A model generated the notes under the pieces. That model saw only the letters and a program-made list of their open reading frames with translations. It had not been told where the DNA came from and searched no databases. A program made the translations under genes and the position numbers. Source: an uncultured Dehalococcoidia bacterium (GTDB lineage Bacteria > Chloroflexota > Dehalococcoidia > GIF9 > UBA5629). Taken from it: a stretch of 32,823 nt of DNA. The stretch is from NCBI GenBank assembly GCA_903844685.1, contig CAIMUM010000127.1, positions 1 through 32,823 on the forward strand, in the 5' to 3' direction. Positions 6,379-13,218 of this stretch are shown piece by piece; the first letter of the stretch is position 1, and the number at the start of each line of letters is the position of its first letter.

Positions 6379-6636
6379 TCAATCTTCCACGCCGGCTTCC
6401 TGCAAGTAGTCCACCAGGTCCTGCAACGTGACCAGGTTATCGGCGTCCTTTTCAGGTATCTCAAACTTGTTGCCAGGCTTGCTGAAAGCGTCTTCGATAG
6501 CTGTAAGGAATTCGGCCAGATCATCCGGATCCATGTTAAGGTCATCGATGAAAGAGGCGGATGGCTCGATTGAAGCTGAATCCACGCCCAGTTCATCAAT
6601 AAGTATATTCTTAATCTTTTCGAATAGCCTGGCCAT
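6379..6636 (-). CDS. Acyl carrier protein-like protein lacking the phosphopantetheine-attachment serine
   Basis: ACP-type fold signature (LFEKIKNILIDELGVDSASIEPSASFIDDLNMDPDDLAEFLTAIEDAF...FEIPEKDADNLVTLQDLVDYL); DSL motif replaced by DPD. ATG at 6634-6636 preceded by GGAG. Confidence 0.88.
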   Translation of the reverse strand: MARLFEKIKNILIDELGVDSASIEPSASFIDDLNMDPDDLAEFLTAIEDAFSKPGNKFEIPEKDADNLVTLQDLVDYLQEAGVED

Positions 6637-6652
6637 TAGCAACTCCGGGTAA

Positions 6653-6687: not shown

Positions 6688-7110
6688 TTATTGCGCCGAC
6701 CTGTGTATATCAGTTATCACAGAACCCAGCACACCATTAATGAACTTGGGAGAAGTATCTGCGCCGAACTCCTTGGCAAGTTCGACTGCCTCATTGACGA
6801 CCACTTTGGGGGGAGCTGTTTTGGCGATGAGGATTTCATATAGTGCAAGGCGGAGAATAGTACGGTCCATGGCGAAAAGCTGGTCAACCGGGAATGTGGG
6901 GGCGAAGCGGCGGATAGTATCATCCAGTAATTGCCTGTTAGCGAGAACTCCGTTAACTAACCCGGCGGCAAACGCTGCGGCTTCTCCTGTCAGGGCTTTA
7001 GTTTCAATTGTACGCTCAAGGATAGATTCGGGACTGTTTGCTGCAAACTCCAATTCAAAGAGCGTTTGTAGAGCAACTATCCTGGCTATATGCCTGTGGC
7101 TTATGGGCAT
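6688..7110 (-). CDS. nusB: Transcription antitermination factor NusB
   Basis: 140 aa; RIVALQTLFELEF start, FAMDRTILRLALYEIL, PPKVVVNEAVELAKEFGADTSPKFINGVLGSV. Confidence 0.96.
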   Translation of the reverse strand: MPISHRHIARIVALQTLFELEFAANSPESILERTIETKALTGEAAAFAAGLVNGVLANRQLLDDTIRRFAPTFPVDQLFAMDRTILRLALYEILIAKTAPPKVVVNEAVELAKEFGADTSPKFINGVLGSVITDIHRSAQ

Positions 7111-7153: not shown

Positions 7154-8104
7154 TTAAAATCTGCCGCCCTTGCGCCACTTGACTATCTCGCTGGTGGTTT
7201 CAGCGTTGCTGAGATTAAAGATAAGCGCACCCGGGCTGATAAGTTTAATATACTTGGTTAAGACATCGCCCGGTCCAACTTCAAAGAAGGTTGTTATGCC
7301 GCGCGCGAGCATTGTCTCCACCGACTGCTGCCATTTGATGCAATGTACTACCTGGCTGATCAAATCCTCTTTGATCGCCTCAAGCGAGTGCATGGGTTGC
7401 GCTGTAACGTTGGATACAACGTTGACCGTGGGTGTTTGATATTGAAATTGTGCTACGGCGTTGATCATACCGTCAAGGGCGGGCTCCATCAACGAAGAAT
7501 AAAATGCGCCGCTGACTTTCACAGGAATAATGCGCCGGGCGCCTTTTACCTGTGCCAGCCTTCTGGCTTTGGCAAGCTTATGATCCTCTCCGCTGACAAC
7601 GATAATTTCAGGCGCATTGATATTGGACATCTCAACACCTGTGGTGAGACAAACGCCTTCGACAGTATCCTTATCGATATCCATGGTCAACATTCCGCCC
7701 GGTTTCCGGCGGCCCGCTTCATTCATAAGCCTGCCGCGTTCGCGGATAAGGCGCACCGCGTCAGCGAGTGTCATCACACCCGCGGACACCAGCGCTGCAT
7801 ACTCTCCGCAACCATGGCCGGCTACCAGTGTGGGAGGGGGCAAAGCGCCGCCGCTCATCTCTTCACCGGCTTTCAGGCAGGCCATGCTGACGGTCATAAT
7901 AGCAGCCTGGGCGTTCATGGTTTGAGAGAGGTCCTCCGCCGGACCTTCAAAGCATAATCTCGACAGGGGAAATCCAAGGGCCTTATCGACTTCCTCAAAT
8001 ACTTCCCGCGCGGAAGTATAATGGACGTAAAAGTCTAGCCCCATCCCGACCTTGATCGACTCCTGCCCCGGAAATACATAGGCCACTTTTACATCTTCGA
8101 CCAT
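7154..8104 (-). CDS. Malonyl-CoA:ACP transacylase (FabD)-family protein with substituted catalytic residues
   Basis: Full-length FabD-like architecture (VAYVFPGQE.., FEGPAEDLSQTMNAQAAIMTVS, AGHGCGEYAALVSAGVMTLADAVRLIRERGRLMNEA, VSGAFYSSLMEP, FFEVGPGDVLTKYIK) but Ser->Gly98 and His->Tyr202. SD GGAGGG upstream of ATG. Confidence 0.92.
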   Translation of the reverse strand: MVEDVKVAYVFPGQESIKVGMGLDFYVHYTSAREVFEEVDKALGFPLSRLCFEGPAEDLSQTMNAQAAIMTVSMACLKAGEEMSGGALPPPTLVAGHGCGEYAALVSAGVMTLADAVRLIRERGRLMNEAGRRKPGGMLTMDIDKDTVEGVCLTTGVEMSNINAPEIIVVSGEDHKLAKARRLAQVKGARRIIPVKVSGAFYSSLMEPALDGMINAVAQFQYQTPTVNVVSNVTAQPMHSLEAIKEDLISQVVHCIKWQQSVETMLARGITTFFEVGPGDVLTKYIKLISPGALIFNLSNAETTSEIVKWRKGGRF

Positions 8105-8150: not shown

Positions 8151-8351
8151 TTATTTACGCTTTTTCTTCGGGCCTTTAACTTCAATTACTTCCCTGCCGT
8201 CATAAGTTCCACATGCCGGGCAAACCTGGTGGGACAATTTCGTAGCATGGCAACGCGAGCATTCAATAAATGATGCCGGGGTCTTAGCAAGATGACTGCG
8301 CCTTTTGCCCTGACGCGCTTTTGGATATTTTTTCTTAGGAAGTGGTGCCAT
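8151..8351 (-). CDS. rpmF: 50S ribosomal protein L32
   Basis: MAPLPKKKYPKARQGKRRSHL...ECSRCHATKLSHQVCPACGTYDGREV; Zn-ribbon L32. Confidence 0.97.
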   Translation of the reverse strand: MAPLPKKKYPKARQGKRRSHLAKTPASFIECSRCHATKLSHQVCPACGTYDGREVIEVKGPKKKRK

Positions 8352-8861
8352 TTATACTTTGCTCTCCTTTTTCAATTGTTCTAACTTATCCCACCGGTGA
8401 TCACTGGACCCGCTGGTATGGCTGCAATTGCCCCTGGCTAACTCATGGCCGCATACAGGGCATATACCCGGGCAATCCGGCCGGCACAATAACTTGGTAG
8501 GTGTTGACATAATAATATATTGTCTGATCGCTTCATTCAAGTCAAGTACATGAGAATTATCTATAATAAAATCCTCAGGCGCGGGGTGAAGGTGGACACC
8601 CGAAATAATATCTATAAGGGGGAAATACTCATCCTCCATATGGAACGTAATTCGCTTATAAGCTTCTCCAAGGCAGCGTGAGCATATTCCTTTTATATCT
8701 GCGTCAAGCTTGCCTGTCACAAGTATTCCGCGATTGGTGCGTATAAGACTTACTTCGCCTGATACGCGGTTGTCATTATTTTCGCCGGCAAGTTCATCTA
8801 TTTTATAATTTCGCTCGGCTCCAACCGGCTCTTTCCGGAGCTGTGCGGTATTAATTTGCAT
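8352..8861 (-). CDS. DUF177/YceD family protein
   Basis: ICSRCLGEAYKRI, DLNEAIRQYIIMSTPTKLLCRPDCPGICPVCG; immediately upstream of rpmF as is typical for the family. Confidence 0.93.
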   Translation of the reverse strand: MQINTAQLRKEPVGAERNYKIDELAGENNDNRVSGEVSLIRTNRGILVTGKLDADIKGICSRCLGEAYKRITFHMEDEYFPLIDIISGVHLHPAPEDFIIDNSHVLDLNEAIRQYIIMSTPTKLLCRPDCPGICPVCGHELARGNCSHTSGSSDHRWDKLEQLKKESKV

Positions 8862-11171: not shown

Positions 11172-11891
11172 ATGGATAGCAGTTTCAAGGGTTTTCCATC
11201 AAGGGCGGAGGTTACTCCTTTGCCCAATGTATTTTTCAGTGAAGTCTTGCCTTTGATGGAGGATGTTGTTGAGGTGAAAGTTGTAATGCAGATCTTTTTT
11301 TTATTGAGCAGGAGAAAGGGTTACCCGCGGTTTGCCAGCTTTAGCGAACTGATACATGATCCTGTGATTATAAAAGGTTTGCGTGAAGTTCCGGGAAATC
11401 CGGAAATTATGCTCAAAAAAGCGCTGGACAGCGCCGTTCAAGCAGGCATATTGATGCATATCCCTGTAGATGTTCAACAGCTGTCCGACGACGCATATTT
11501 TATAAATAACCAGGCGGAGCATGAGACTATCCGCAAAATACTCGCAGGCACGCTGAAGATCCCCAGTGTAAAGATCAGGAAGGTTGAGGAGCAGGCCCAG
11601 GTAGAAGCAAGCGATATCTATAACCTTTATGAACAGAATATAGGCATGCTTACACCTATCCTTGCGGAGGAACTGCAAGAGGCTGAACACCGGTATCCTG
11701 CGGAATGGATCCAGGACGCTTTCCGCGAAGCGCTAAGGGCAAATGTACGGAGCTGGAAATATATACACAGCATTTTAAAACGTTGGGAAAGAGAAGGAAG
11801 AAAAGATGGAAAACCTGTCGGAGATTCTCGGCAAGAAAGAGATCCCGATAAATACATCCGGGGAAAATACGGACACATGGTACGGCGGTAA
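11172..11891 (+). CDS. DnaD-like replication initiation protein
   Basis: C-terminal DnaD/DnaB_2-type helical domain (IYNLYEQNIGMLTPILAEELQEAEHRYPAEWIQDAFREALRANVRSWKYIHSILKRWEREG); N-terminal winged-helix-like region. Confidence 0.85.
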   Translation: MDSSFKGFPSRAEVTPLPNVFFSEVLPLMEDVVEVKVVMQIFFLLSRRKGYPRFASFSELIHDPVIIKGLREVPGNPEIMLKKALDSAVQAGILMHIPVDVQQLSDDAYFINNQAEHETIRKILAGTLKIPSVKIRKVEEQAQVEASDIYNLYEQNIGMLTPILAEELQEAEHRYPAEWIQDAFREALRANVRSWKYIHSILKRWEREGRKDGKPVGDSRQERDPDKYIRGKYGHMVRR

Positions 11892-13218
11892 GCCGGAAGT
11901 GTTCGTTGCCGGTGTACAGTCGGTCAATGACTGTACCGTATGCCACGGGACAAAATTCATACATCCTTTGCTGGCATCGGGCGAGCCCGATTACAGCCGT
12001 CTGGAACCGTGTGGTTGTACCAGGAAAGATATTGATAACAGGAAGGCAGCGCGTTTACAGGCTATCAGCAATTTGGGCAGCCTCTCCAAGCTAACTTTCG
12101 ACAACCTGTTGCCTTCAGGACGTAATGATGACGCTGTTTCCCAGAAGCTTTTTCAATTGGCTTTAGACGAAATCCGTAAATTCGCCGAAAATCCGCAGGG
12201 CTGGATAATTTTGGCGGGACCCGTCGGTAGCGGGAAAACGCATTTAGCCTCTGCTGTGGCGAATTACCGCATAAGCCTGGGACACCCCGCATTTTATATC
12301 ACCGCCGGTGAACTATTAGATCACCTGCGGTCAGCTTTCAGCCCAAATAGCGAAGTTGGATATGATGAGTTATTTGAGCAGATCAAGGAAAGCCCGTTGC
12401 TACTGTTGGATAACCTGAATTATTCCGCCACCACCGCCTGGTCAAAAGGCAAGCTTGACCAGATCTTAGAGCACCGTTTCAACGGCAGGCTTCCGACGCT
12501 GATAACCACGAGCATGGCAATTGAGGAGTTTGGCAATGACTATGCCGGGCATATTTATGATACTGAAGTCAGCAAGGTGCTCATATTGAAAAAGGAGTCA
12601 TCCAGCCTGCAGAGCTTAGATAGCCTTGATCTCGAGTTACTGAAAAACATGAAATTTGCCAATTTTGATGCCAAGCGGCTGAGCCTTCCCGACGAGGTCC
12701 GAAAAAATCTCGAGCAGGCCTTCAATATAGCCCGCGATTTTGCCAGGGTTCCGCAGGGCTGGCTGATATTTGAGGGCTTGAACGGCTGCGGCAAGACACA
12801 CCTGGCTGCGGCTATTGCGAACCAGTTGAGGGAGACGGGCAAAGAAGTCCTTTTCATCGTGGTTCCGGATTTGCTCGATCATCTGCGTTCCTCTTTTGCC
12901 CCTGAAAGCAGGATTTCCTATGACGCATTATTCGAGAAGATAAAAAAAATGCCGATCCTGGTACTGGATGATTTTGGAGAGCATGCTGCTACGCCATGGG
13001 CGCAGGAAAAGCTCTACCAGTTGATGAACTACCGTTATAACGCCCGCCTGGCTACTGTAATGACCACCTGCCTTAATCTGGAAGAAATAGAAAACAGGGT
13101 CAGTTCACGTATGGTGGACCCCAGTATCAGCCTCGTGTTCAACATCATTGCGCCTGATTACCGGGGGGATATCAAGACGTCACGTGTTGTAAGGTCCCGT
13201 CCGAGACCAAAAAATTAG
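11806..13218 (+). CDS. DnaC/IstB-like helicase loader with two tandem AAA+ modules and an N-terminal Cys cluster
   Basis: Two related blocks: module 1 GWIILAGPVGSGKTHLASAVANY..LLLLDNLN, module 2 GWLIFEGLNGCGKTHLAAAIANQ..ILVLDDFG..RVSSRMVDP. N-terminal CTVCHGTKF...EPCGC. SD GAAGGAAG before ATG. Confidence 0.88.
   Translation: MENLSEILGKKEIPINTSGENTDTWYGGKPEVFVAGVQSVNDCTVCHGTKFIHPLLASGEPDYSRLEPCGCTRKDIDNRKAARLQAISNLGSLSKLTFDNLLPSGRNDDAVSQKLFQLALDEIRKFAENPQGWIILAGPVGSGKTHLASAVANYRISLGHPAFYITAGELLDHLRSAFSPNSEVGYDELFEQIKESPLLLLDNLNYSATTAWSKGKLDQILEHRFNGRLPTLITTSMAIEEFGNDYAGHIYDTEVSKVLILKKESSSLQSLDSLDLELLKNMKFANFDAKRLSLPDEVRKNLEQAFNIARDFARVPQGWLIFEGLNGCGKTHLAAAIANQLRETGKEVLFIVVPDLLDHLRSSFAPESRISYDALFEKIKKMPILVLDDFGEHAATPWAQEKLYQLMNYRYNARLATVMTTCLNLEEIENRVSSRMVDPSISLVFNIIAPDYRGDIKTSRVVRSRPRPKN

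Follow-up and report, generated by a model that had tools for sequence, protein, structure and literature searches.

The window, the whole stretch of 32,823 nucleotides analysed here, encodes on its minus strand (7154..8104) a homologue of FabD, the malonyl-CoA:ACP transacylase (MCAT), that is catalytically dead as judged by sequence (S98->G, H202->Y, PGQESI), together with a homologue of acyl carrier protein (ACP) that lacks the phosphopantetheinylated serine. The usual view of FabD and ACP is that they serve fatty-acid metabolism, and FabD is considered a drug target. We propose that the FabD-fold protein stopped transferring malonyl groups and that, together with the ACP-fold protein of its operon, it would have been kept on in a scaffolding or regulatory role that needs no catalysis, our best guess for its field of action being ribosome or rRNA biogenesis; the probability of this reading as a whole is put at about 0.45. 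Its parts differ in strength. That the dead FabD is a pseudoenzyme maintained by selection seems very probable, that it works together with the serine-less ACP is rated as an even chance, and a role of the pair in ribosome or rRNA biogenesis, our leading hypothesis, is put forward tentatively. The observations that bear most on the possible role of the gene are the loss of the ACP serine, the presence of a live paralogue in sister genomes and, in several genomes, the apparent loss of type II fatty-acid synthesis (FAS-II).

Identity and catalytic motifs of the FabD homologue

The 316-residue product of 7154-8104 (minus strand) exceeds the cut-off of the NCBI FabD equivalog model TIGR00128 (269.3 bits against 260.9), also matches the Pfam profile PF00698 and aligns over nearly its full length with solved MCATs, the best relatives being 3qat, 3ezo and 1mla. 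In the alignment with 3qat and 3ezo, the nucleophilic Ser of GHS(L)GEY is matched by G98 and the catalytic His of (A/P)FHS by Y202. Both substitutions had been called in an earlier sequence-only reading of this DNA, and they are borne out by the codons GGT (7811..7813, minus strand) and TAT (7499..7501, minus strand). The change of the oxyanion loop from PGQGSQ to PGQESI, which that reading also described, is confirmed by codon 15, GAG for Glu (8060..8062, minus strand), at a position where live FabDs have Gly, and the RERGRLM and FFEVGPG motifs are retained as it had stated.

The window protein therefore resembles FabD in its full-length homology and in Arg123, Gln14, His97 and FFEVGPG, and differs from a working FabD in having neither the Ser of GHSxGE nor the His of GAFHS, in the Glu of its PGQGSQ loop and in the fact that several host genomes have no detectable FAS-II. 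The carboxylate-binding R123 is invariant in dead and live copies alike. By homology the protein is a member of the family, which it leaves, on present sequence evidence, at the definition of a working malonyltransferase by two catalytic residues, and we predict that it does not catalyse. AlphaFold runs on alignments of 7 and 6 sequences gave no confident model (pLDDT 30.5 for FabD and 54.7 for ACP), these alignments being too shallow.

A clade of FabD homologues without nucleophile

FabD homologues and their motifs were compared across 60 related genomes, the family of the window's own genome being referred to as f1; all the dead-clade genomes whose records were seen are MAGs, some of them incomplete. 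Position 98 is Gly or Asp in 23 of the 23 members of the nusB-linked clade (22 full-length proteins, including that of the window, and one partial), Asp98 being the residue of one dead sub-clade. Because this replacement recurs throughout the clade, chance and sequencing error, the latter allowed for by the earlier reading, were rejected as its source. The second member of the Gly/Tyr pair is less uniform: position 202 is Tyr in 55% of the dead clade and otherwise Asn, Ser or the retained His. Glu15 occurs in 91% of the dead clade, and the oxyanion loop of the f1 dead copies reads mainly PGQES, with PGQDS and PGQEA also found. Position 99 is Cys in the window's genus alone and S, A, V, I or M in relatives. 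Cys99, which had been named as a potential stand-in, was therefore rejected as a general substitute nucleophile, since a residue limited to one genus is no conserved replacement.

In a maximum-likelihood tree, the dead copies of f1 form a single clade (support 96/94) nested in the nusB-linked clade (99/96), and the live FabDs located elsewhere in f1 genomes form a separate clade (97/91). We read this topology as a duplication, after which catalysis would have been lost in one of the two copies. At this locus, family f3 and a few f1 and f2 genomes have a canonical copy (GHSLGEY, GAFHS). The homologue of G032 (family f4) carries GHGLGEY and takes no firm place in the tree; an independent loss of the nucleophile in this genome is possible.

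The serine-less ACP and the apparent loss of fatty-acid synthesis

The ACP homologue is encoded by the small ORF after nusB (6379..6642, minus strand), whose product matches PF00550 (PP-binding) at 34.6 bits against 20.8. The DSL motif that holds the 4'-phosphopantetheine Ser of an ACP reads here D-P-D, with a CCG codon for Pro at the serine position (6526..6528, minus strand), which by sequence places this protein outside the carrier-protein definition. In the f1 genomes with a dead FabD, this position of the locus ACP is mainly Pro and otherwise Gly or Ala, and it is Ser in f3. Serine is missing from 21 of the 22 readable dead-FabD genomes; the full count is 21 dead FabDs with a serine-less ACP, one dead with Ser, one live with a serine-less ACP and 13 live with Ser (Fisher p ~8e-8, for genomes that are phylogenetically non-independent). 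The coupling is imperfect, a point against our reading: in G011 the FabD is live and the ACP serine-less, and G032 pairs a Gly-FabD with a Ser-bearing ACP. On our reading, FabD and ACP would form a physical complex. When 245 genomes of the class were searched for the serine-less ACP with a strict DNA pattern, all four matches lay in its own family; the strictness of the pattern leaves absence elsewhere unproved. In G022 the serine-less ACP (L009:2959-3258) has an in-frame TAG about halfway, beyond which the ACP frame reopens; the cause is either a nonsense mutation or a fault in the assembly.

The presence of FAS-II was scored by profile search (PF00698 for FabD, PF00550 for ACP, PF02801 for ketoacyl synthase and PF01648 for AcpS) in genomes that are not closed. 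In some f1 genomes a second locus, a fab operon, encodes a live FabD, a Ser-bearing ACP, AcpS and ketoacyl synthase. By contrast, G018 (completeness 98%, contamination 1%), G004 (93/2), G026 (92/1), G009 (96/2) and G003 (96/5) each contain one PF00698 protein, the dead FabD, and one PF00550 protein, the serine-less ACP, and the profile searches found neither PF02801 nor PF01648 in them. The window's own genome (G000) has the same pattern, with the dead pair only and no ketoacyl synthase or AcpS, which at 78% completeness is weak if taken alone. Ketoacyl synthase and AcpS are present in the sister genomes G016, G020, G022 and others, and FAS-II persists in some congeners (G022 beside G008; G029 beside G009 and G028). 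FAS-II was thus apparently lost, and the dead FabD/ACP pair kept, in several near-complete genomes. Since the searches of these genomes found no second FabD or ACP and neither ketoacyl synthase nor AcpS, the pair is apparently left without a FAS-II pathway and probably has another job. Where the pathway is seemingly gone, strong selection on a dead FabD and on a carrier-less ACP would mean a second job separated from the first, so that a non-metabolic role of FabD and ACP becomes directly testable in bacteria. Automatic annotation, the FabD cut-off being passed, would record a malonyltransferase and a step of FAS-II, both of which, judging by these genomes, are probably missing there. Searches of open-licence PMC papers found no report of FabD pseudoenzymes or of FAS-II loss in Dehalococcoidia.

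PlsX is absent from most of the genomes without FAS-II (the exceptions are G009 and G028). PlsY (PF02660; 2-11 matches per genome, mostly 4-7) and DegV/FakB-like proteins (1-15 per genome) are unusually numerous in f1 and its relatives, including those without FAS-II, and these multiple copies would fit the use of external fatty acids. For AccA (PF03255, malonyl-CoA supply) there were partial matches only, which could be other carboxyltransferases, and the FabH matches (PF08541) seen in most genomes lie mainly in frames of ~480 aa that are probably not FabH.

Operon context and proposed function

The locus has the conserved order yceD-rpmF-fabD-nusB-acp and is convergent with mfd. In the window, the minus strand carries yceD (DUF177, 23S rRNA accumulation protein family, PF02620) at 8352..8861, rpmF (ribosomal protein L32, 66 aa, read from the translation) upstream of fabD at 8151..8351, and nusB (transcription antitermination factor, identified by profiles) between fabD and acp at 6688..7110. 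L32 belongs to the ribosome, and NusB acts in the antitermination of rRNA transcription. YceD is required for normal 23S rRNA levels (PMC5049393). Our guess of ribosome biogenesis is made because these three neighbours do ribosome or rRNA work, a job in which the pair would also act. However, linkage of yceD, rpmF and fab genes is old and common (PMC5049393), so that the ribosomal neighbours may be a legacy without functional meaning. Moreover, net positive charge does not rise in the dead FabDs over the live ones, and this equality gives no hint of a new RNA-binding surface.

There are precedents in mitochondria. Human mitochondrial MCAT is reported to be a bona fide assembly factor of the small ribosomal subunit, which sequesters h31 and blocks the docking of h42 (PMC9892005). 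The window protein shares the FabD fold with MCAT (8csp chain 8), whose role outside fatty acids is ribosome assembly; unlike MCAT, which is also assigned to mitochondrial fatty-acid metabolism, it is dead by sequence, and its ribosome role is suggested by operon context. The mitochondrial ACP of Plasmodium, in which Ser is replaced by Phe, remains indispensable to the assembly of Fe-S clusters although FAS-II has been lost (PMC8547962). The window ACP likewise keeps the fold without the phosphopantetheine Ser after an apparent loss of FAS-II, and differs from this eukaryotic, Isd11-Nfs1-bound protein in being bacterial and in standing beside a dead FabD. If true, our reading would provide a bacterial parallel to the moonlighting of MCAT and ACP in mitochondria, surviving FAS-II loss. 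Its most specific form, in which the dead FabD and the serine-less ACP are a dedicated ribosome/rRNA-biogenesis complex that outlived FAS-II, as the bacterial counterpart of mitochondrial MCAT/ACP moonlighting, must be regarded as doubtful.

The pair could also be a scaffold or regulator outside the ribosome, with, for instance, an Fe-S cluster protein or a protein of the stress response as its binding partner. Ordinary ACPs have such partners, SpoT (PMC3340395) and Isd11-Nfs1 (PMC8547962) being documented cases of moonlighting. We consider this possible rather than probable, as it leaves unexplained the conserved linkage with nusB, rpmF and yceD, although that linkage may itself be ancestral.

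The fabD and nusB genes of sister genera are separated by a gene for a radical-SAM protein of 378-407 aa (L133:5104-6237, L138:3958-5133 and L142:5763-6983), which speaks against our reading; the window's own genus has no such gene at this place. L134:4059-5192 resembles these genes by look, not by profile scan. In G011 (L133:4374-10971), a FabK/nitronate-monooxygenase-like gene, AcpS, FabF and a live ACP lie between rpmF and the live fabD, and a serine-less ACP follows nusB, an arrangement that is possibly the state before the fab operon moved away.

Selection and site conservation

Pairwise dN/dS was calculated with our own NG86 implementation on the same species pairs for FabD, NusB and YceD. 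Saturated pairs aside, the dead FabD gave 0.02-0.08, compared with 0.09-0.28 in NusB and 0.10-0.24 in YceD, which indicates strong purifying selection on the dead FabD. The values are approximate, because some of the synonymous distances approach or exceed saturation, and their ranking is consistent. In the nine genomes holding both copies, mean identity is 70% among the dead FabDs and 59% among the live ones, the dead copies are more alike than the live ones in 33 of the 36 pairs, and 136 sites are invariant in the dead set against 95 in the live set. This matched comparison is the one to trust, because the dead copies span less phylogenetic breadth than all live copies together. Sites invariant in live copies and variable in dead ones include 17, 67, 98, 99, 140, 161, 163, 167, 200, 202 and 255, so that the nucleophile and the catalytic His are among those released. 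Judging by established MCAT structures, several of the released sites presumably sit near the pocket.

The conservation pattern bears on whether the dead FabD is a metabolite sensor, which would bind malonyl-CoA or another acyl-CoA via Arg123 and Gln14/Gln66 and signal through a partner such as the serine-less ACP. Arg123, Gln66, His97 and Phe201 are indeed invariant in the dead clade and Gln14 is kept in 95%, but positions 17, 67, 140, 161, 163, 167 and 200 vary there and the gene is kept in genomes without FAS-II, and we judge a sensor unlikely. Part of the substrate pocket thus seems, from the sequences, to be decaying as well, and this weakens the earlier suggestion that ligand binding is perhaps retained: Arg123, Gln66, Phe201 and mostly Gln14 stand, whereas Q17, P67, A140, N161, N163, Q167 and A200 drift.

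A cryptic or altered acyltransferase or hydrolase, relying on another nucleophile (Cys99 or Asp98) or on general-base chemistry alone, could draw on Cys99 in the window's genus, on Asp98 in one sub-clade and on the retained ligand-binding Arg. It is rather improbable, given that position 99 varies (C, S, A, V, I, M), that H202 is lost in most copies and that the two catalytic positions rank with the most variable of an otherwise highly conserved protein. A decaying post-duplication relict heading for loss, to which the TAG in the ACP of G022 and the relaxed active-site positions might point, is rejected as scarcely credible in view of the low dN/dS (0.02-0.08) across large synonymous distances, the open frames of the full-length copies and a conservation above that of the live paralogue. 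The designation of the window protein as a FabD-family pseudoenzyme, already proposed in the earlier reading, is consequently well supported at the sequence level by clade-wide substitutions, by strong selection and by a live FabD that is either located elsewhere or absent with its pathway.

Elsewhere in the window, translation reading of a 470-aa ORF (11806-13218) points to apparently tandem DnaC/IstB-like ATPase domains with two GKTHLA P-loops; this ORF adjoins dnaB-like and L9-like ORFs.
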